Positions 3,088 through 25,383 of a stretch of 32,416 nt of DNA are shown here, in pieces. The DNA lies in assembly GCA_003645255.1 (NCBI GenBank), contig QNES01000028.1, positions 1 through 32,416 on the forward strand. Direction: 5' to 3'. The notes below the pieces were generated by a model. That model ran no database searches. It was not told the DNA's origin and saw only the letters and a list, made by a program, of their open reading frames with translations. How positions within the stretch are numbered: the stretch's first letter is position 1; every line of letters starts with the position of its first letter. The stretch comes from Gammaproteobacteria bacterium (GTDB lineage Bacteria > Pseudomonadota > Gammaproteobacteria > Beggiatoales > Beggiatoaceae). The position numbers and the translations under genes are program-made.

Positions 3088-3180
3088 AGAGCCAATAATT
3101 TAACTATATTATAGTACAGCGAATTAAGAATTATAAAGAATATTATTATTCAAAAATAGTATTTCTAATTCAATTTTCCA

Positions 3181-5253
3181 CTAATCTCCAAACAATAAAT
3201 CCAAAATACGATAAGCAGATCTTTCAGGATAAAAATGGGCAATGTCTTTAATAGCTTGGAGCATTAATGATTTTCGCATTTTATCATCATTCACCAATGT
3301 TGTCAAGGCGGTATAACAACTTTTATAAGAAATCGTATCTATAACCAGGGCATTTCTTTGATGAATCGCAAAACTATCCGTGCCACCGGTATTAGGAACA
3401 ATCACTGCCACACCACAAGCCATCGCTTCCATCGCAGTCAATCCCATCGCTTGAAAGTTTGAAAAATCAGCGAATATATCAATTTGGTTAAATAATACAG
3501 CAATTTGTGTCGGTATGCAAATCCCCAAATTGCGATATTTAAAATCGCGTGGCAAAGCTAAAAATTCGGGATCATCATCAGCTGCTCCAAACAATATAAT
3601 TTCGACTTGATCCGCAAACTGGTGCTGGATTTCGCGTAGCACTTGCATAGTACGTTTCGCTCCACGCCGAGTGCTAGAAGGGCGAATCATGGCACTAATC
3701 CATATTTTATCCTGTACCATTCGTTCCAAACGGGGCATAAAAATATCTACACTACAGCTTGCACCAATGACCGTACAAGGTAGTTTGATTTGTTTTTCAA
3801 CTTCCCTTTTATTCCAATGCGTTTTTGTAAAGCATACTATATTAGGAATACGTAAATAAGATATCCAAGCGGCGCGAAAACCAGGCTCGGTGCGAAAATA
3901 ATAAGATGCAAACCGACGGCGCAACCAAGCTGATTGCCAAAATGACCGGTAATGTGCCGGTTTGTCAACATAAAAATAAGGTTCAAAATCTTGAATATAG
4001 TAAGCAATTATAGGAGCATCTGGCTGTTCAGCTAAAGGTGCAATCCATTCAACCGAATTATTAGCCGTCGCAATGACCGCATCAAAATCATGACATAAAT
4101 TGGGTATATCAAAATATGCCGCCGCATAAATAACCGGCACCTCTAATTGGGGATAACATTGCTCAAATCCCGTTTTATGATGCAAAAAATTCAGAATATG
4201 AACATCAATTCCCATACGTCGCATAGCGCGGGCTTCATCAATCACCACATTAGCACCGCCCCCAATTTCCATAACAGGTAAGATAAAAACCACCCGTTTG
4301 CCACGCCAATAGTATTCAGCCTGGGTAATCAAATTCCAGCGTTCTATGATCAATTTGGCACGAATACGGATACCTTGTAGTACCCGACTCTGCCTACAAA
4401 AATCAATGCCCGCATCAAGAGTCGCTTGCCCATACTGACGAACTAAAGCAACAAACGCTTGCTCGGCTAACGGCTTACGACGTTCATGGGAATAACTTTT
4501 TGATTGTGCATGATAAATGTACACATCATCAGCAACGGCTAGTTCCCAACCGGCTTGACGGGCGCGAATACAATAATCGTTTTCTTCACCATACCCCTGT
4601 GGAAACGTTGCTTCATCAAAAAAACCTATTTTTTTCAAAAGGGAACGTTTAATCAATAAACAAAAACCATTCAAAAAAGGTAAACGCGGATATAAGCGTA
4701 CCGAGTGTGCTGCTATTCTCGCTGCCATTTGTGCGATGCTCAAATCGGTAGGTAAAGGATTGCTAGCCCAATCCCCTTGATGTTCAAATTCAGGGATAGA
4801 TTGCCAAGAGGCGGTATTACTCAAAGGACCAACCATACCAATCTGAGTATCTGATTCTGCACAGGCTACCATACGTTCTAACCAATGGGGTGTAACAATG
4901 GTGTCACTATTTAAAAGTATAAGATGAGTACCGGTTGCCGCCCGTAATCCTTGATTAGCCGCACAGGTATAACCACGCGCCTTTTCATTTCTTAATAGGA
5001 TAGTTGGATAAGTACGAGCATGATCGCGCAAATAGTGACAAGTATCCGCTTGACTCCCATCATCAACAATAATTAAGGTATAGGGAGGCATTGTACATTG
5101 TACGATAGAATCCAGACAGCGTTGAACATCGGCTAGGGCATTATGTACACAGACAATGATGTCAACAGGTTGTTGATGGTGGGATACGCCTACAGTGTCA
5201 AGTTGATAAGTAGGTTGTGTGATTGATACTGACGGTGATATTTGCAAATTCAT
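3181..5253 (-). CDS. Two-domain glycosyltransferase (GT2 + GT4), 690 aa
   Basis: The N-terminal half is a family 2, GT-A fold transferase: DIIVCVHNALADVQRCLDSI at 31-50, nucleotide-sugar loop IIVDDGSQ at 61-68, LNSDTIV near 114-120 (metal-binding DxD-like position), GFCLLIKRSLLKKIGFFDE, and GYGEENDYCIRARQAGW with the ED base motif near 220. The C-terminal half, from about 315, is a GT-B fold family 4 type: VVFILPVMEIGGGANVVIDE, then the acceptor/donor region with TAMEAMACGVAVIVPNTGG near the end. Such bifunctional enzymes build surface polysaccharides or glycans in the cytoplasm. Start and stop of the upstream Panacea gene overlap by one base (TAATG), indicating translational coupling. No membrane segment is seen. 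The sugar specificity is not readable. Confidence 0.9.
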   Translation of the reverse strand: MNLQISPSVSITQPTYQLDTVGVSHHQQPVDIIVCVHNALADVQRCLDSIVQCTMPPYTLIIVDDGSQADTCHYLRDHARTYPTILLRNEKARGYTCAANQGLRAATGTHLILLNSDTIVTPHWLERMVACAESDTQIGMVGPLSNTASWQSIPEFEHQGDWASNPLPTDLSIAQMAARIAAHSVRLYPRLPFLNGFCLLIKRSLLKKIGFFDEATFPQGYGEENDYCIRARQAGWELAVADDVYIYHAQSKSYSHERRKPLAEQAFVALVRQYGQATLDAGIDFCRQSRVLQGIRIRAKLIIERWNLITQAEYYWRGKRVVFILPVMEIGGGANVVIDEARAMRRMGIDVHILNFLHHKTGFEQCYPQLEVPVIYAAAYFDIPNLCHDFDAVIATANNSVEWIAPLAEQPDAPIIAYYIQDFEPYFYVDKPAHYRSFWQSAWLRRRFASYYFRTEPGFRAAWISYLRIPNIVCFTKTHWNKREVEKQIKLPCTVIGASCSVDIFMPRLERMVQDKIWISAMIRPSSTRRGAKRTMQVLREIQHQFADQVEIILFGAADDDPEFLALPRDFKYRNLGICIPTQIAVLFNQIDIFADFSNFQAMGLTAMEAMACGVAVIVPNTGGTDSFAIHQRNALVIDTISYKSCYTALTTLVNDDKMRKSLMLQAIKDIAHFYPERSAYRILDLLFGD

Positions 5254-9845: not shown

Positions 9846-9934
9846 TTAAATTGACTACTTAAATATAGTTTGTAAATGGGAAATAGGGCGTTGTGAATTT
9901 TAAATCTTCCAATATTTTGTTAGAATTAGCAATT

Positions 9935-10018
9935 AGAAATACTTTTTTTCAAAAAATATTATTTCTTTAAAAAAATATCACATTCAGGCGTGTTAGAAAT
10001 ACTATTTTTCAAATTTCT
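9935..10018. repeat. Dispersed hairpin plus a truncated second copy
   Basis: A degraded AGAAATACT...TATTATTTCT hairpin (9935-9966) is followed by a shortened copy (9995-10018) that keeps AGAAATACTATTTTTC but has lost most of the right arm before AAATTTCT. The second copy ends only 7 nt before the ATG at 10026 and takes the place of a Shine-Dalgarno site. Confidence 0.7.
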
Positions 10019-12512: not shown

Positions 12513-14414
12513 TTAGGGCAGAACATTCCAACTATCCTGATTAGAACAATCACCCGTCAATATAGCTGAGAACTTCATGTCTTTTCCCTTTAGCAGGGTG
12601 TCGAGTTTCCCAAGATCAGCATCGGCATAAGGAGATGCGTCAGTTGTGAATAGTATCACGCCACCATCTTTGAGGTGTTCGACTGCCAGCGTCAAGGCTT
12701 CTACCGAGGCTTCAGGGCAGGTACCACCGCCTTCCGCTTTCAGGGATTTAACCGCTTTGAGTAAAACATTTAAGTCCCTCGTTGCTGCGATGAACCGCAC
12801 ATCGTCTTTAAACTCTACCAAGACAATCAATGGTGCTTTGCTTGGATCAATCTCTTTGGCGATGAAGTTATTGAGGGCATGAATCACACCATTTATCTCT
12901 TCAGTCATGCTGTGAGTGGTGTCTACGACTAATACCATATCCACTTTCACATCATCACCAATGGAGACTTTGGTGCGTTCTTTTGTGGTGTGGGCGGGAT
13001 ACTCATTCGCCGTCACCTTCGCTTCATGCGTCAATAGCAGTAACCCAGCATCTTTGAGAAGTACGTCCACATTAACGGTGACTTGACTTATGTCATCCGC
13101 GTTGTCAACACTCAAGTCAGTCAGTGAGCAAATTAGTGTCGGCAGATTGCTGGTGTCGCACATGCCATAATCGGTGTTTACCGATTGCAGTTCAACCCCT
13201 TTTGGTAATCTCGTCACCAGTTCAACACCCGTTGCTGCGGTAAGCGCATTGGCACTCAGTTCAACCGTTATCGTGTAGTGTAGTATTCTTTCTACATCCA
13301 CTTTCGCCATTGCTATTGGATCTGGCGTATCGGTAATATCTACCGATAGATATGGAATCACTTGTGTCCTCTTTTTGACCACGTCTGTTGGGTATTCGTT
13401 AGATGTGACGGTAGCTATATTTAGCAACGTATTAGTTTGCGTGTTATTGACTACCAATTCGACTCTAGCAAAATTACCCGTCGTTAAGTCAGGCAAAGTA
13501 CAAGTGACGGTTTCTACATCGCACTCGCCACCATCTAATACTCCAATGGAAACAAGGCTGGTTCCTTCGGGTAGTTCATCAGTCAGTACAATACCTGTTG
13601 CCGTTTTAGTGCCACCATTGGTCACTGTCATGGTATAGGTAATGTTGTCATCCTGTCTGATTGTCCGACTACTTGCCACAATACTCACTTTGATATCGGA
13701 AATGGGTTTAATGGGTACTTCTTGTCTGAAGTCTTCATTACCGAGTGCAAAGTTAGTTTGAGCAAATGTGTAGCCCTCTTTACTAGCAATAGCAACATAG
13801 TCATCGCCTTCTCGTAAGCCGCTGATTTCCCAGTAGCCAAAGTCAGTTGTGACAATTTTTTCATCACCGATTTTCACTTCAACACCGGCGATTGGTTTGC
13901 CAAGCTCATCAACGATTGCGCCACCAACAGTATATGGCCCATTGCTACCCATTTCAACAATGACATCAGCGTCAATGACCGCTAATTTCTTGGGTGCAAA
14001 CCAATGGCCATCTTTACTAGCTGTGACCGTATGTATGCCATCAGTGACACCATCTATTTTCCAAAAACCAGTTTCATCAGTGACAACTGTTTTATCACCC
14101 ATTTGTACGGTGACATCAGCAATTGGCTTGTTATCGCCGTCAAGGATGTAGCCACTAGTGGAACGAAGTTTAGCAGCATCGTTTATGCTGTCAACTGAAG
14201 TTTCATGGTTAATAATGACATCATCGTCCTCGAAAATAAAGGTTTGTGGTACAAATTCATAACCTTCTTTACTCGCCGTTACGGTGTATTCACCTTTAGC
14301 TAGATCGGTGATTTCCCAGAAACTAACTTCATTAGTGACAGTGGTTTGATCACCTATTTGCACGGTGACACCCATAATTGGATCACCAGCTTTATCTAGG
14401 ATTAGTCCAGTCAC
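12513..14414 (-). CDS. C-terminal half of a split secreted protein: carboxypeptidase-regulatory-like repeats, DUF11, VWA
   Basis: 633 aa if started at the GTG at 14414, but this frame is the direct in-frame continuation of the 14424-17546 gene after one TAA. It has no Shine-Dalgarno site and no signal peptide, so independent expression of an exported protein is unlikely. Three carboxypeptidase-regulatory-like repeats (GLILDKAGDPIMGVTVQIGD; GYILDGDNKPIADVTVQMGD; GAIVDELGKPIAGVEVKIGD) cover about 1-230. Two DUF11-type domains (ITYTMTVTNGGTKTATGIVL and following) cover about 235-480. The VWA domain has a MIDAS-like DTTHS near 499-503 and FTTDASPYADAD. The frame stops abruptly after GDCSNQDSWNVLP, just before hairpin repeats, so the end may also be truncated. 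Extracellular adhesion is the likely role. Confidence 0.75.
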   Translation of the reverse strand: MTGLILDKAGDPIMGVTVQIGDQTTVTNEVSFWEITDLAKGEYTVTASKEGYEFVPQTFIFEDDDVIINHETSVDSINDAAKLRSTSGYILDGDNKPIADVTVQMGDKTVVTDETGFWKIDGVTDGIHTVTASKDGHWFAPKKLAVIDADVIVEMGSNGPYTVGGAIVDELGKPIAGVEVKIGDEKIVTTDFGYWEISGLREGDDYVAIASKEGYTFAQTNFALGNEDFRQEVPIKPISDIKVSIVASSRTIRQDDNITYTMTVTNGGTKTATGIVLTDELPEGTSLVSIGVLDGGECDVETVTCTLPDLTTGNFARVELVVNNTQTNTLLNIATVTSNEYPTDVVKKRTQVIPYLSVDITDTPDPIAMAKVDVERILHYTITVELSANALTAATGVELVTRLPKGVELQSVNTDYGMCDTSNLPTLICSLTDLSVDNADDISQVTVNVDVLLKDAGLLLLTHEAKVTANEYPAHTTKERTKVSIGDDVKVDMVLVVDTTHSMTEEINGVIHALNNFIAKEIDPSKAPLIVLVEFKDDVRFIAATRDLNVLLKAVKSLKAEGGGTCPEASVEALTLAVEHLKDGGVILFTTDASPYADADLGKLDTLLKGKDMKFSAILTGDCSNQDSWNVLP

Positions 14415-14423
14415 TTTTGGTAG

Positions 14424-17400
14424 TTAGCTACCAGTGCTACCACCATTGGATGTGGAATTACCACCACCAGTACTGGTATCATCATTAACTTCTTCTACTA
14501 CGTCAGTACGTACTACTTCTGCATTTTTACGTTCTACGGTTCGTTGAAGTCTGGAAGTGACAAAATTGCGTCCTGTTGGATCATAAAACTGCGTTTGTGC
14601 TAGTACTAAACCTGAACTACGCTTACCAACAGTAGTACCATTCCGTGTTCCCCTTCTCGTCGTTGTTTTAGATTTAAGACGCAGTTTCACAGAGACTAAG
14701 GCACCGCTACCATTGATTGGTTGACGATCTGCCATTGCAATACGTACTTTGCCTTCACCATTATCGCGAGAATAAATGCTAAACCTTTTGGTGAACTTTG
14801 TTTTCTTGACATCGGTAATACCTTCAACTACTGCCGGGTCATAAGAGAGAATAAACTCACCACCTGTGAAATTACTCAGATTTTCAACATTTAGCATGGT
14901 TTCTGTTTCCGTACCAGATTCTCCATCCACGTTACCCAATTCGATAGTCATCGGTGAGTCATTTTGTGCCGATTGGGAATCATCACTGGATAGAGAAGGC
15001 CATTTTCCATAGTATGAATAGTAGAAAATTGCTGCTGCATCGTTAGCATCTATCTTACCATTACCGTTAGTATCTGCTGCTGCAATCTGTCGTTCAGTAA
15101 AGGGATAGGTACTTTTATTAGTGATGTGTCTCAGGACGAGTTTACCATCATCAATGTCTACCAACGCATTCATATTAGGATCACCTAATTGACCGGTAGC
15201 ATCAACTGTAAATAAACCATCAACAATCAAAAGTGGTTCTCCGGAATCTCTCGTACCTCTTCTGGTTGCAACGTTAAAGATTGCATCACCAAAACTTAAG
15301 GGGATATTATTGCTGGTATCCTCATCAATATATTCCATGAGGACAGAATTATTTGGTTCCCACAAAAATTGAGCTGTGGTTCCATCAATAACGTCCCTTA
15401 CTTCACCAGAAATCCAGAAAAACAATTCTTGACCACCAACAAGTTCTGATGGTAATACTTCATCGTCACCCGTGACTATAAAGTTTACTACTCTACCCTT
15501 GTCAGTATCAGTGAAGATTGGTGTTGGGTCAAAGTAATAAGAAAAATCTTCCATATCTGGGTCCCACAGGAAGGAGCTAGGAGTGGCGGACAAATCTAAA
15601 TTTGGTGTGTCAACAGTAATAACACTATTATCAAACCCCAATTTTAGGTTGCCTCCAGAAATTTTTAATCCTTGAGCATTGGAAATTCTCACAGGAATTC
15701 TAACCTCTTCTCCGGGAGCAGCTGAAGCAACACTGTCGATAAACAATCTGACTGCTCCAAAAGTATCACATGCTTCTGTGGATTGAGCCAACAAGTTTTT
15801 ACCACCAACATCATCGTGTTTGTGTACTTTGAAACGGTAGCAATACTTATCAGGTTTCACCATTGGTGTCTTGGTATCTTCATCAAAGTATTGATTGACG
15901 GATATCAAAGAGGCCATGTAATCAACAGTTTCTATCTCTAGCCACTCATCGAGATCAGTAGGTTTATCATTTTCAGGAGCACGCAAAAATGTAACATGAG
16001 TATTTACAGGATCAATATAGGTGTTAATAGGATTCGCTGACCAATCCAAATTCATGGTATTAGCACCCGGGCGAACCACCAGAGGAACAAACTCCAATGG
16101 TTTGACAGTGATGTTCCCAGTAGCACTTACATCTCCCACTTTGAGTGTAATTACATAATGAACCACATCGTTTTCACCCATATCGTTTTTAGTGAAGGTA
16201 AAAGATGGTTCCTTATCGTTACTACTATCCCACGTACTATCACCTTGTTTTACTTCCCATATCCACGGTGTTTCTTCGACTATACCGCCGGAAGAATTAT
16301 TCGTGATTTTAGGGGTAAAACTAATGCCTTCGGCCACAAAACCTTCTTCAAAGTCAATACTGAAAGCAGCTTTAGCAGGCTCAGGTAAAGATTTCGTGTC
16401 AAATTGCCAGATAGGCCCTTTCGTAATGCTATGTCCATCCTTAGCCACGACACGCCAGTAATAGGTTTTGCTACCGCCCAAAGTAGAAGGAAGTGTACAA
16501 TCTTTTTCTTCTTCATTTTCACAAACAGGACTTGACAAAGTAAATAAATTTGATGATAGTGACACGGTATCACTCAAATAAACATCGTATTTCACCGTAT
16601 CAGTGTCATCAATACCACCATGCCAACTCAGTTTAAATCCAGTGGTTCCATAGTCTACAGCATCATCACCACTTGTACCATTTTCTGGGTCAGGAGTTGT
16701 AGCTTTAGTTGGGGGAGCGTTGTCTCTAATTGAAAACCCCCAAGGAGGTCCCTTTCGACTGTTTCCAAGACTGTCCTTCGCTTCAACTTGCCAAAAATAG
16801 CTTTTACCAAACTCAAACTTGTTTTTGTCATCAAGGAAGGCATTTACAACGGTGTAATTATCAGACTCAATACCTGGACCAATAGGTTCAGTTCCAATTC
16901 CAAAAAAAACATCGTAAGTGAGTGGATAATTACCTTCAGGATCACTTCCACTCCACTTCAAGTCAACTTGTATAGGAAGTTCAGTAAGAGTAGTAGGGAT
17001 TCCTGGTGATTCCAAACTAACTGTTGGTGGATGGTTAATTGGTGGAGCTGGCTGTTGAACATATACTACATCAGGACCACACTTCTGAAATAAGGTGATA
17101 ATGCAAACAGCACCACCTACAACTGTATTTACAACACCACCAACAAATTTACCAACACTACTAATTGCATTTCCTATATCTTTAATAGGATTCCACCCCC
17201 TTGTCTTTCTTTCCAATACATCCTCGACACAAGCAGGATCACGATAAGTAGTACCATCACGACCTTCGACAGTGCAGCCACCAAAGTCTATCTCGTTAAA
17301 GACTAACTCACCATCTGGTGACTGAATAGCACGATTATCGAATAGAATTGACGTAGCGTTGTTCTGAGGTTCTGTAATATCAGAACCTTCAGTGGTAGTA

Positions 17401-17546
17401 GCCCAGCTAGGCACAGCACTACCAGCGAGCAATGTCAACATGAGTGCCCCTGATGTGGGTATAGATCGCCACCGCCTATTGGGTGGCTCACAACAATGAG
17501 TGTCCCGCGTAGGAACACGTTTTCGTCGTAAATATGAGGTCATCAT
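14424..17546 (-). CDS. Large secreted protein with Fn3/PKD-like, cohesin-like and dockerin modules, 1040 aa
   Basis: AAAGGA precedes two adjacent ATGs; the second (17543) has better spacing. A 30-residue polar N-region precedes the hydrophobic TSGALMLTLLAGSAVPSWA, with cleavage after Ala49. Then: two Fn3-like modules at about 170-390 (PPTVSLESP...YFWQVEAKD; YYWRVVAKDGHS), a PKD/Ig-like module at about 395-480, a further module to 595, a cohesin-like domain at about 597-760 (VASAAPGEEVRIPVRISNAQ, LKLGFDNSVITVD), a dockerin with two EF-hand-like calcium loops DPNMNALVDIDD and DTNGNGKIDAND at about 780-835, a second cohesin-like domain at about 860-965, and a Gly/Ser/Thr linker. The stop TAA falls in that linker and the frame continues into the 12513-14414 part. 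Probably a surface or matrix scaffold; no enzyme domain is seen. Confidence 0.88.
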   Translation of the reverse strand: MMTSYLRRKRVPTRDTHCCEPPNRRWRSIPTSGALMLTLLAGSAVPSWATTTEGSDITEPQNNATSILFDNRAIQSPDGELVFNEIDFGGCTVEGRDGTTYRDPACVEDVLERKTRGWNPIKDIGNAISSVGKFVGGVVNTVVGGAVCIITLFQKCGPDVVYVQQPAPPINHPPTVSLESPGIPTTLTELPIQVDLKWSGSDPEGNYPLTYDVFFGIGTEPIGPGIESDNYTVVNAFLDDKNKFEFGKSYFWQVEAKDSLGNSRKGPPWGFSIRDNAPPTKATTPDPENGTSGDDAVDYGTTGFKLSWHGGIDDTDTVKYDVYLSDTVSLSSNLFTLSSPVCENEEEKDCTLPSTLGGSKTYYWRVVAKDGHSITKGPIWQFDTKSLPEPAKAAFSIDFEEGFVAEGISFTPKITNNSSGGIVEETPWIWEVKQGDSTWDSSNDKEPSFTFTKNDMGENDVVHYVITLKVGDVSATGNITVKPLEFVPLVVRPGANTMNLDWSANPINTYIDPVNTHVTFLRAPENDKPTDLDEWLEIETVDYMASLISVNQYFDEDTKTPMVKPDKYCYRFKVHKHDDVGGKNLLAQSTEACDTFGAVRLFIDSVASAAPGEEVRIPVRISNAQGLKISGGNLKLGFDNSVITVDTPNLDLSATPSSFLWDPDMEDFSYYFDPTPIFTDTDKGRVVNFIVTGDDEVLPSELVGGQELFFWISGEVRDVIDGTTAQFLWEPNNSVLMEYIDEDTSNNIPLSFGDAIFNVATRRGTRDSGEPLLIVDGLFTVDATGQLGDPNMNALVDIDDGKLVLRHITNKSTYPFTERQIAAADTNGNGKIDANDAAAIFYYSYYGKWPSLSSDDSQSAQNDSPMTIELGNVDGESGTETETMLNVENLSNFTGGEFILSYDPAVVEGITDVKKTKFTKRFSIYSRDNGEGKVRIAMADRQPINGSGALVSVKLRLKSKTTTRRGTRNGTTVGKRSSGLVLAQTQFYDPTGRNFVTSRLQRTVERKNAEVVRTDVVEEVNDDTSTGGGNSTSNGGSTGS

Positions 17547-17660
17547 ATTTCCTTTAGTATTAATAATAAAAAATGAAATAGCTAATTCCTAATTAAAAAA
17601 AGAATTACCCATTTCGCCCTACCAAAATTACCAAAACTGGTCATATCGGCACCCCTATTA

Positions 17661-17693
17661 AGAAACCAAGTATTTTGGAAAAACTCGGTTTCT
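17661..17693. repeat. Dispersed hairpin, AGAAACC variant
   Basis: AGAAACCAAG...ACTCGGTTTCT, arms matching except inside the CAAG/CTCG block. Variant of the AGAAA...TTTCT family, immediately followed by a perfect member. Confidence 0.7.
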
Positions 17694-17698
17694 AACCA

Positions 17699-17731
17699 AG
17701 AAATACTATTTTTTGAAAAAATAGTATTTCT
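17699..17731. repeat. Dispersed hairpin, AGAAATACTA type, perfect
   Basis: AGAAATACTATTTTTT and AAAAAATAGTATTTCT pair perfectly around one G. The cleanest ACTA/TAGT member of the family in the window. Confidence 0.88.
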
Positions 17732-17799
17732 AATAATGAGTGGCATTTTAAAACGACCACCCGGCACCGCTTGAAACTAGGGGGGTGTTCCAAGTGGTT

Positions 17800-17828
17800 G
17801 TGTTAATGGACACCGGTCCATTAGACAC
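17800..17828. repeat. TAATGGAC hairpin
   Basis: GTGT-TAATGGAC pairs with GTCCATTA-g-ACAC around a short ACCG loop. It is not part of the other repeat families and no gene starts nearby. Function unknown. Confidence 0.5.
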
Positions 17829-17837
17829 CTAAAGAGA

Positions 17838-17851
17838 TCAGTTATCAGTGA
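17838..17851. repeat. Orphan TAACTGA pair
   Basis: Minus-strand order TCACTGA TAACTGA, one exact and one changed heptamer. No start codon with a credible coding frame lies within 20 nt on either strand, unlike the three other arrays. Confidence 0.5.
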
Positions 17852-18308
17852 TCCAGTTAATCAAGAAATACTATATTCTTCTTTCGATTGGATACCCATT
17901 TTACAGCAAATCGAAATTAAGTCAAATGAATTTTGCATAAGTTTTACTTTTTGATGAAAAAAAGCTTATTTTATACAAAATTAAATTATCATAAAGCAGC
18001 TATTTATATATGACTACAGTCTATTTGTCATTTTAATTAGGACTTAATAGATAGGTATAAAAAATAATGCTCCATTATTCGATTTACAAAAAAAAATGTT
18101 ACGCGCTGAACTGGCTATTTTAGGCATGTTACAAATTCGCAAAAATCAATTTAGCCTTTTTTATAGAAAACCTAAGCAAAAAGCTTGTATTTTCATATCA
18201 AATCTGTTAAAATATTAAAGTGCATTTTAAAAATTCTTAGTTCACAAAATAGAACCCCAGGACATTTTACAAAGTTTAGGAATGTGCATGAAATAAATTC
18301 GACAACCA

Positions 18309-18337
18309 GACCTGGCAGGAAGAAAACCTGCCAGGTC
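18309..18337. repeat. GACCTGGCAGG hairpin, perfect
   Basis: GACCTGGCAGG (18309-18319) and CCTGCCAGGTC (18327-18337) form a perfect 11-bp stem. It lies downstream of the rloB remnant on the minus strand. Confidence 0.7.
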
Positions 18338-18362
18338 AAAATCCAGTTTGGACGCTGCCCTT

Positions 18363-18396
18363 GACCTGCCAGGTTTTGTTTTAAAGCCTGGTGGGC
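18363..18396. repeat. GACCTGCCAGG hairpin, imperfect
   Basis: GACCTGCCAGGTTT pairs with AAAGCCTGGTGGGC with several mismatches. Second copy of the CCTGCCAGG family within 60 nt of the first. Confidence 0.55.
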
Positions 18397-18530
18397 AAAC
18401 GTGTTTTTGTGTGCATCGGCATTCATTTTCTATCAGATATGTAGGGTGGGTAGAAATTTTTCAAACGAGGGGTTGCAAACGATTTCATATTTCTTATGTT
18501 TCACATAAGACTACTATATTCCAATAGCAT

Positions 18531-18848
18531 TCAATTATTGTAAAATTTTATCCCATCTCGTAATTCTTTAACAAGAAAAGGTTTACTTTTTTCAACATTT
18601 GTTAAATGCAGTAGCAACCATAATTCAAACGCTTCATTACTGTATGCAATTTGAATATTTTCCTATTTAGCGATCTTAAAAGCATCATTAAATTTATTAA
18701 TTTTTGTTTCATTTTCATCAGCATCGTCTTTATCAAAAACAGCCCAAACGAAATCAATTTCTTTGTGGCATTCAAAATCAGTTCGATTCTTTATAGCCTG
18801 ATCAATAACACCTTTAGGATTCCGTCCCGTTCCAACAGTTCTTATATA
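18531..18848 (-). pseudogene. rloB-like remnant (RloB family, PF13707)
   Basis: Minus-strand reading from 18848 gives YIRTVGTGRNPKGVIDQAI, then HKEIDFVWAVFDKDDADENE, then FNDAFKIAK, an in-frame TAG (18663-18665), and on in the same frame ENIQIAYSNEAFELWLLLHL to TGA at 18531. GTG(R/K)NP, VW.VFDKDD and AYSN..FELWLLLH are RloB hallmarks. RloB genes travel with restriction-modification systems and rloA. The first part of the protein is missing, and the preceding TAG (18849-18851) and internal TAG show that it is dead. It follows the rloA remnant, out of frame with it. Confidence 0.75.
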
Positions 18849-19227
18849 CTACGTCAGGACGTTCAGGCTTATTTTTTTCATCAAAATATCTAAAATCAGA
18901 AAGCGCATAAATCTCAGTCGCTTCCCAATTATTCTTCTCTACAAAATTTATTTGATCTCTCCAAAGTGGGCAATACGTCAGTATATTTGTATCATGAGTG
19001 GCAAAAATAATTTGTGCCCCATACGGATTGGTTGCTTTATTTAAAAATAAATTTATCGTATTAATTGTCATCATCGGGTGCATTTTAGCTTCAATTTCAT
19101 CAATAAGCATAATACTCCCTTCGCTCAAGGTTCTAATGATGGGTCCACTTAAATGAAATGCTTTTTTTGTACCTTCTGATTCATTATCATCTAAATCCCA
19201 ACTACTTATACGTATATTTAAATAATG
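18814..19227 (-). pseudogene. rloA-like AAA15 ATPase remnant, C-terminal part only
   Basis: Open minus-strand frame from 19227: LNIRISSWDLDDNESEGTKK, AFHLSGPIIRTLSEGS, then Walker B IMLIDEIEAKMHP and IIFATHDTNILTYCPLWRDQ with the sensor/switch His. This is the C-terminal part of an AAA15-family (COG1106, RloA-like) ATPase. Walker A and most of the N-terminal domain are absent; a TAA lies just upstream at 19228-19230, and the DNA methyltransferase gene ends 40 nt away. The tail runs out of frame into RloB-like sequence near 18845, suggesting a deletion that joined the two genes. It cannot encode a working ATPase. Confidence 0.75.
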
Positions 19228-22702: not shown

Positions 22703-24607
22703 TTACTTAGCAACTAAGTTAACATGAGGTACCTTCTTCAAGCTCCACTTTTTAGACTTACGATCATAAGTGGAGTTGACGAAGCACTTCCAATTTTCTT
22801 CATCAACGAAGTTGAAGTCCATGCGATAGTAGAAGCCCGGATAACGGGATTCTTCACGGAATTGAATGTGTTTCATGTGAGCTTCTGCCGTGATGATGCG
22901 GTGATAGTTTTCCCAAGCACGGAGCAATTCGTGCAAATCTTTTGCCCGCATTTTGAAGGAATCTTCCTTGAGCATTTCCAACTTGTATTCGCAGACTTCC
23001 AACATTTTCGCGTTGGTTTGATACCAAGTCGCTACACCCGCGCAGTATTCGTCCATAATCTTTTGCAGACGGAATTGCAACATTTTGGGGGTGATGTAGT
23101 TAGGATTGACATCAATAGCGGTGCTGTAATCTTTGTGTTCCAAGAAGGTTTTCACTGGCTTGTAGATATCAGCTACCAATTGATCAACAGGCGCATCTAA
23201 TTCCGGTTTCCAGTCTTTGTGATCCAGCGCATACTTCACCATAGCTTTAGCCGCAATACGACCTTCTGCATGGGAGCCAGATGAGAATTTGTGACCAGAA
23301 GCACCAACACCGTCACCCGCTGTAAATAACCCCTTGATTGTGGTCATGGAACGATAACCCCAAGACCATTCTGGTGGTGCGCCTAAGTCAGTCGGACCGG
23401 AGACCCAAATACCACAGCAACCAGAATGTGAACCCAGTAAATACGGTTCGGTCGGCATCAACTCAGATGGCCTCTTTTCTGGTTCAATGTTTTCACCAGC
23501 CCAGACACCTGCTTGACCGATACACATATCCAAGAAATCTTCCCAAGCTTCAGCTTCTAAATGCTTGATTTCCTTGGGAGTCATGGTTTCAGCCAATTTA
23601 GCTAAAGCGGTTGGCGTATCCATATAAATTGGACCACGACCTTCTTTCATCTCATGCATCATGAGATGGTTACGTAAACAAGAAGCTGGCACCGCAGCTA
23701 GACCATAAGGCGGATAGTCATTCAACATCTCCTTGTTTCTTTCCATGTAGTTTTCACCAAAGGCATTGGTTGCCTTCGCTTTAAACAACAAGAACCATGC
23801 ACCGACTGGACCATAACCGTCTTTAAAGCGGGCTGGTACAAAGCGGTTTTCCATCATGGTTAATTCCGCACCGGCTTCAGCAGCCATAGCGTAGGTGGAA
23901 CCTGCATTCCAGACTGGATACCAAGCGCGACCGGAACCTTCACCAACAGAGCGTGGGCGGAAGAGATTAACGCAACCACCAGCGGCGAGCAGACAAGCTT
24001 TGAACTTATAGACATACACTTTGTGTTCACGCACGGAGAAACCGATAGCACCTGCTACACGTTCCGGATCGTTTTTATCGTTGATCAATTTAACGATGAA
24101 CACACGTTCCTGGATACGGTCAGTCCCCAGGGCTTTTTTAGCGGCTTCGGCAACAATCCATTTATAGGATTCGCCATTAATCATAATTTGCCATTTACCA
24201 GAACGGACCGGTTTACCGCCATCTTTCAAGGATTTGCCTTCATCACCTTTTTGTTTCCAAATCGGCAGTCCCCATTCTTCAAACAACTGTACCGAGTCAT
24301 CAACGTGACGACCTACATCATAAGCCAAATCGTCACGGGTAATACCCATTAAGTCATTAGCGACCATACGGGTATAATCTGCCGGATCATTATCACCCAG
24401 GTAAGTATTAATTGCAGATAAACCTTGAGCGACTGCACCGGAACGATCCAAAGCGGCTTTATCAACCAATTTGATTTTGAGATCAGTGCCTTCAGTCCAA
24501 CGCATGATTTCATACGCTGCACCACAGCACGCCATTCCACCACCAATCAACAGGATATCGACTTCTTCTTCAATAACTTGTGGATTACCAAAAGTGCCTT
24601 CTGCCAT
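22703..24607 (-). CDS. aprA: Adenylylsulfate reductase, alpha subunit
   Basis: FAD subunit of dissimilatory APS reductase; in sulfur oxidisers it runs in the direction sulfite + AMP to APS in the cytoplasm. The 634-aa length is typical. The N-terminal FAD fold is visible at 16-29 (VDILLIGGGMACCG), then LVDKAALDRSGAVAQGLSAI, YPVWNAGSTYAMAAEAGAEL and MMENRFVPARFKDGYGPVGA, and the flavoprotein C-terminal signature GLFTAGDGVGASGHKFSSGS. AGGA lies 7 nt before the ATG. It is 87 nt downstream of aprB, with a hairpin between, and is followed by a strong terminator, so the operon is just aprBA. No aprM, qmo, sat or dsr gene is present here. Confidence 0.97.
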   Translation of the reverse strand: MAEGTFGNPQVIEEEVDILLIGGGMACCGAAYEIMRWTEGTDLKIKLVDKAALDRSGAVAQGLSAINTYLGDNDPADYTRMVANDLMGITRDDLAYDVGRHVDDSVQLFEEWGLPIWKQKGDEGKSLKDGGKPVRSGKWQIMINGESYKWIVAEAAKKALGTDRIQERVFIVKLINDKNDPERVAGAIGFSVREHKVYVYKFKACLLAAGGCVNLFRPRSVGEGSGRAWYPVWNAGSTYAMAAEAGAELTMMENRFVPARFKDGYGPVGAWFLLFKAKATNAFGENYMERNKEMLNDYPPYGLAAVPASCLRNHLMMHEMKEGRGPIYMDTPTALAKLAETMTPKEIKHLEAEAWEDFLDMCIGQAGVWAGENIEPEKRPSELMPTEPYLLGSHSGCCGIWVSGPTDLGAPPEWSWGYRSMTTIKGLFTAGDGVGASGHKFSSGSHAEGRIAAKAMVKYALDHKDWKPELDAPVDQLVADIYKPVKTFLEHKDYSTAIDVNPNYITPKMLQFRLQKIMDEYCAGVATWYQTNAKMLEVCEYKLEMLKEDSFKMRAKDLHELLRAWENYHRIITAEAHMKHIQFREESRYPGFYYRMDFNFVDEENWKCFVNSTYDRKSKKWSLKKVPHVNLVAK

Positions 24608-25258: not shown

Positions 25259-25350
25259 TTTTATACAAATATGTTAGCCGAGCAGATTTGCTAACGATTT
25301 AAGATTATAACATAATAAAATTATAATATTATAACATTCAATTAATAAAA

Positions 25351-25383
25351 AGAAATACTATTTTTGGAAAAAATAGTATTTCT
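25351..25383. repeat. Dispersed hairpin, AGAAATACTA type
   Basis: AGAAATACTATTTTT and AAAATAGTATTTCT pair perfectly around GG. Lies about 190 nt upstream of aprB. Confidence 0.85.

Follow-up and report, generated by a model that had tools for sequence, protein, structure and literature searches.

Among bacterial surface proteins, nonsense alleles and young pseudogenes carry a single derived in-frame stop in a frame that is otherwise open. The gene described here quite probably belongs with them, as a recent nonsense allele of a single gene for a large secreted protein. It lies on contig QNES01000028.1 of a gammaproteobacterium of the Beggiatoaceae, within the stretch from position 1 to 32,416 (hereafter, the window). 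Judged by genes that we take to be aprA- and aprB-like, the host is probably a sulfur-oxidising gammaproteobacterium.

On the minus strand, an ATG at position 17546, preceded by AGGA and followed by a long basic N-region and a hydrophobic stretch (by eye), opens a frame of 1040 codons (part 1) that is ended by a TAA at 14426–14424. CTA, CCA, AAA and a GTG (14414) come next without a change of phase; in all, 636 codons remain open from 14423 to 12516 (part 2) until a TAA at 12515–12513 closes the frame. An in-phase open run of 636 codons is not a chance occurrence. A sequence-only reading of the window had counted the downstream frame as 633 codons from the GTG and placed both frames in one phase; the coordinates and the sum (1040 + 1 + 3 + 633 = 1,677 codons) hold, and the codons that it gave between the two frames, as well as the C directly 3' of the TAA, are those read in the sequence. 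The stop had also been placed at a boundary between a linker and a domain, and indeed it falls between the Gly/Ser/Thr linker that ends part 1 and a CarboxypepD_reg domain whose match begins at residue 4 of part 2. Likewise, we see by eye neither a Shine–Dalgarno sequence ahead of the GTG nor a signal peptide in part 2, and the VWA and DUF11 domains attributed to part 2 were recovered there as Pfam matches (VWA_4 and DUF11). The features are listed in Table 1.

Table 1. Features of the interrupted gene, in window coordinates
Feature	Position	Strand	Remarks
Part 1, 1040-codon frame, secreted protein	14427..17546	-	Signal sequence by eye; dockerin-like and cohesin matches; Gly/Ser/Thr linker at end
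In-frame TAA	14424..14426	-	Lysine codon in both close copies found
Part 2, 636 open codons and natural stop	12513..14423	-	Three CarboxypepD_reg stretches, DUF11, VWA_4
Dockerin_1-like match	15027..15185	-	Part 1 residues 788–840; weak, score exactly at the cut-off
Cohesin domain, best stretch	14628..14951	-	Part 1 residues 866–973
Gly/Ser/Thr-rich linker	14427..14483	-	Part 1 residues 1022–1040, adjoins the stop
First CarboxypepD_reg domain past the stop	14256..14414	-	Part 2 residues 4–56
DUF11 domain, best stretch	13386..13697	-	Part 2 residues 243–346
VWA_4 domain	12537..12938	-	Part 2 residues 496–629
Tract with all 60 differences from L043	13885..14598	-	Identical sequence on both sides; stop inside

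Three families scored above the Pfam cut-off in part 2 (CarboxypepD_reg, PF13620, 77.2 bits; DUF11, PF01345, 85.4 bits; VWA_4, PF25106, 81.3 bits). The cohesin family PF00963 reached 58 bits in part 1, compared with a cut-off of 24.1; by this match part 1 is a cohesin-bearing protein, with dockerin binding as a predicted property. The C-terminus of part 2 is the natural one, because its end coincides or nearly coincides with that of homologues: the last residue is shared with G000:C244, G000:C173, G000:C87 and one frame of G033:C402, and further homologues end within a few residues of it. A VWA domain cut short at the C-terminus was considered and rejected on these grounds. The three G000 paralogues have in common both their C-terminal end and the sequence past the stop codon, which suggests that their 3' ends were recently duplicated or exchanged. 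Nothing in the whole window reached the Rfam gathering level; two sub-threshold matches lie within 17500–18500.

Two close copies of the gene were found. One, L043 (contig JAOZMR010000264.1; 3,635 bp), was the only relative among 24 pattern matches in the genome_contigs scan, and its bin is named 'Pontiellaceae bacterium isolate GMC3.metabat2.52'. It encodes the same protein and aligns without gaps to window positions 17370–13736, as a single open frame of 1211 codons that reaches both contig ends. The other, G060:C542, turned up when 42 genomes of the family were searched, and belongs to another genus within it. It shares the N-terminus of part 1, is colinear with the window around the junction, and consists of a single 1477-codon frame that runs without a stop to the contig edge; identity is 54% over part 1 residues 316–1040 and 78% over part 2 residues 1–441, where its contig ends. 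At the column of the window's TAA, both copies (two of two) have a lysine codon, and the stop was found in the window's copy only. Among viral contigs, the viral_contigs scan found no relatives of part 1. L043 and two further contigs, G063:C20 and G063:C243, are binned as Pontiellaceae but seemingly derive from a relative of the window's organism, and the bin that holds them is probably contaminated.

More distant homologues also treat the two halves as one gene. Counting the window's own genome, matches to part 1 were present in 6 of 57 genomes and matches to part 2 in 35 of 57. Four homologues were checked from the long part-1 match, which starts in them at residue 553–564, to the end of the part-2 match (G000:C58, G034:C36, G002:C228 and G021:C459), and none has a stop in this interval; identity is 24–27% in the long part-1 match and 31–40% in part 2. 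The whole of part 2 directly follows part 1 only in G000:C58 and G034:C36; in G002:C228 the match to part 2 is confined to its first repeats, and about 420 unmatched codons separate the halves in G021:C459. In a fifth homologue, G060:C171, one stop-free match spans the junction. The lysine codon in the two close copies found, together with the single frame through both halves in distant homologues, marks the stop as derived.

Comparison of the window with L043 places the stop within a sharply bounded region. The two sequences are 100% identical from 17370 to 14599 (2,772 bp), then differ at 60 sites, all of them within 14598–13885 (714 bp) and one of them the stop itself, and are again identical over the remaining 149 bases. 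Divergence in the tract is 7–8%. At a rate of 60/863, a clean stretch of 2,772 bases upstream is essentially impossible by chance, and the probability of 149 clean bases downstream is about 2e-6, indicating that a tract of ~714 bp, replaced or mixed, sets the two copies apart. The stop is thus part of either a recombined allele or an assembly that mixes strains, and both fit the pattern. Two further contigs of the bin that holds L043 have best matches to the window's genome that are 91–97% identical over 158–606 bp, and a sister strain is therefore plausible as the source of the tract. A search for a donor in the same genome gave longer matches of only 72–78% DNA identity; matches above this were short, about 16–40 bases.

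Over the 180 codons past the stop, dN/dS is 0.31 between the window and L043, 0.25 between the window and G060, and 0.22 between L043 and G060. Constraint downstream of the stop thus resembles the history of an intact gene and is not visibly relaxed, from which the stop is probably young. Relaxed selection past the stop was considered from domain scores and a three-way comparison with G060. The first domain past the stop lies further from the family consensus in the window, with 38.4 bits, than in L043, with 51.6 (90.9 and 100.8 in a second scoring); the second domain (83.0 and 85.5) and the third (79.9 and 77.2) show little difference. Derived codons in the first domain number 11 nonsynonymous and 5 synonymous for the window and 3 and 1 for L043, an asymmetry of 16:4 (p about 0.012); over the stretch that follows, the two copies balance, with 5 and 5 nonsynonymous and 4 and 5 synonymous codons in the window and L043, respectively. 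Because synonymous and nonsynonymous changes are both in excess in the first domain, decay is not demonstrated, and import of a more divergent piece would explain the first-domain excess at least as well.

The main rival to a nonsense allele is an artefact of metagenome assembly, by which a wrong base or a contig mixing strains would hide an intact gene in the living organism. The genome is fragmented (313 contigs), a second copy of the stop was not found, and the passage from 2,772 identical bases to 60 differing sites in 714 bp is chimera-like. Against this, apart from the stop itself the 60 differences resemble ordinary coding divergence, with 26 nonsynonymous and 17 synonymous codons past the stop between the window and L043. 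With 59 other differences in the same tract, the stop is less likely to be an isolated sequencing error, and we regard the artefact as a whole as unlikely, if a good deal more credible than the alternatives that follow. Programmed or tolerated readthrough of the TAA, yielding a short and a long secreted form, could draw on the entirely open frame past the stop, the low dN/dS there, and the position of the stop at a linker/domain boundary with C as the next base. However, both close copies have no stop at this column, and none of the four distant homologues has one between the halves. The window's aprA-like gene (22703–24607, as we recognise it) also ends in TAA followed by C; TAA ends 8 of 16 frames picked from the 25 listed for the window. 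The 100-base segment around the stop folds unremarkably (z -1.48; 16 of 200 shuffles as good). A search of the genome for tRNAs, in which 150 of 292 first-look candidates were scored, gave 44 matches, all read with ARAGORN (30 loci, plus 14 matches in 12 stretches). None of the 44 has a TTA, CTA or TCA anticodon, in a set from which expected tRNAs are missing (any for Ile and Leu-TAA were not seen among these matches). Literature listings returned nothing on stop codon readthrough in Beggiatoa, and nothing specific among the papers listed on readthrough generally or on cohesin, dockerin and Thiotrichaceae. We consider readthrough very improbable.

Isolated stops elsewhere in the family bear on the same question. 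G060:C111 (L187) has a single in-frame TAA near the end of a CarboxypepD_reg domain (about 3088–3336), flanked by at least 599 open codons on its 5' side and about 409 on its 3' side. In G061:C486, a TAA precedes a domain of this kind by a few residues, but the stretch ahead of it is a different, RHS-like one and a further stop lies upstream. Both could speak for readthrough, but neither TAA is at the window's column; the same holds for G012:C11, where the matched stretch has no internal stop and the gene's own stop comes directly after it, for G033:C67, where the stop lies directly ahead of the match and the sequence upstream is rich in stops, and for G033:C30 and G059:C219, whose flagged stops lie in sequence full of stops. 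The inspection covered these six; G033:C61, G033:C412 and G023:C317 are further matches flagged for an internal stop. That the 1,677 codons are instead two separate genes, the second starting from the GTG at 14414, is scarcely credible. The in-frame GTG lies 9 bases past the TAA and coupled re-initiation is conceivable, but one protein spans the junction in the relatives, and the second start has neither of the signals looked for by eye, a Shine–Dalgarno sequence and a signal peptide. Thus, of the options that the sequence-only reading had left side by side, nonsense mutation is the best supported, by the lysine in both close copies found; readthrough finds little support in the relatives, the tRNAs, the fold or the aprA-like TAA-C; and sequencing error gives way, as an isolated event, to the possibility of a strain-mixed assembly. 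The comparison with orthologues that this reading had proposed proved decisive, and the relatives do not have the arrangement that it named as contrary to its view, a pair of separate proteins that each carry a signal peptide.

Interrupted members are not rare in these assemblies, which fits gene decay or assembly error; G000:C87, G033:C67 and G060:C111 are truncated or interrupted family members elsewhere. The TAA of G060:C111 hints that such stops may exceed one chance event and makes recurrence slightly likelier. It would serve as a second case for a further scheme, which we think improbable, in which 0.7-kb cassette alleles with and without the stop interchange by recombination and the VWA-bearing half is off in some cells or strains. 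In L048 (G000:C117) and L028 (G001:C89), a CarboxypepD_reg–DUF11–VWA module lies behind an RHS/YD-repeat-like stretch (named by eye), and several in-frame stops occur further upstream in both genomes.

Upstream of the gene, the leader at 17531–17661 is 82–94% similar over about 80–130 bp in 4 of 10 loci compared (G060:C542, G002:C113, G000:C75 and the start of G063:C20), and it is possibly a promoter or leader shared by this secreted-protein family. A palindromic element of ~33 bp at 17699–17731 is also present at 25350–25383 and 9932–9967 and recurs across the genome. The leader query gave at least 69 matches in G000, itself included, with 40 of 613 candidates scored; most of them correspond to the ~33-bp stem, often on both strands. 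At 18814–19128, in a gap with little other coding sequence, lies what looks by eye like the remnant of an ATPase-like gene (LIDEIEAKMHP).

Taking the nonsense allele as the preferred reading, we infer that the ancestral gene encoded about 1,677 residues as one secreted protein and that this copy recently gained an in-frame nonsense change. Translation would most likely stop at the TAA and yield a secreted short form of 1040 residues that is without the VWA and DUF11 domains and the CarboxypepD_reg repeats. Expression of the 636 codons past the stop is unlikely, because the GTG has no visible Shine–Dalgarno sequence and the product would have no signal peptide. Recombination between strains probably introduced this allele or separated it from the other, because a 0.7-kb tract differs from the sister copy while both sides are identical.

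For annotation, the two frames are best entered as one interrupted gene, and neither as two proteins nor as a case of readthrough; beyond that the distinction matters little. If the allele is real, some strains of this bacterium would make this large secreted protein with its VWA-bearing half and others without it, and recombination would act on a 0.7-kb tract of its gene. Compared with its closest relatives, the window's gene encodes the same protein as L043, and outside the divergent tract its DNA matches without a difference for 2,772 bp on the upstream side and 149 bp on the downstream side, but it has TAA where L043 has a lysine codon; with G060:C542 it shares the N-terminus and a colinear junction, whereas that copy is without the stop. 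Compared with known nonsense alleles of surface proteins, what is peculiar here is the position of the stop at a domain boundary and the divergent tract that surrounds it.
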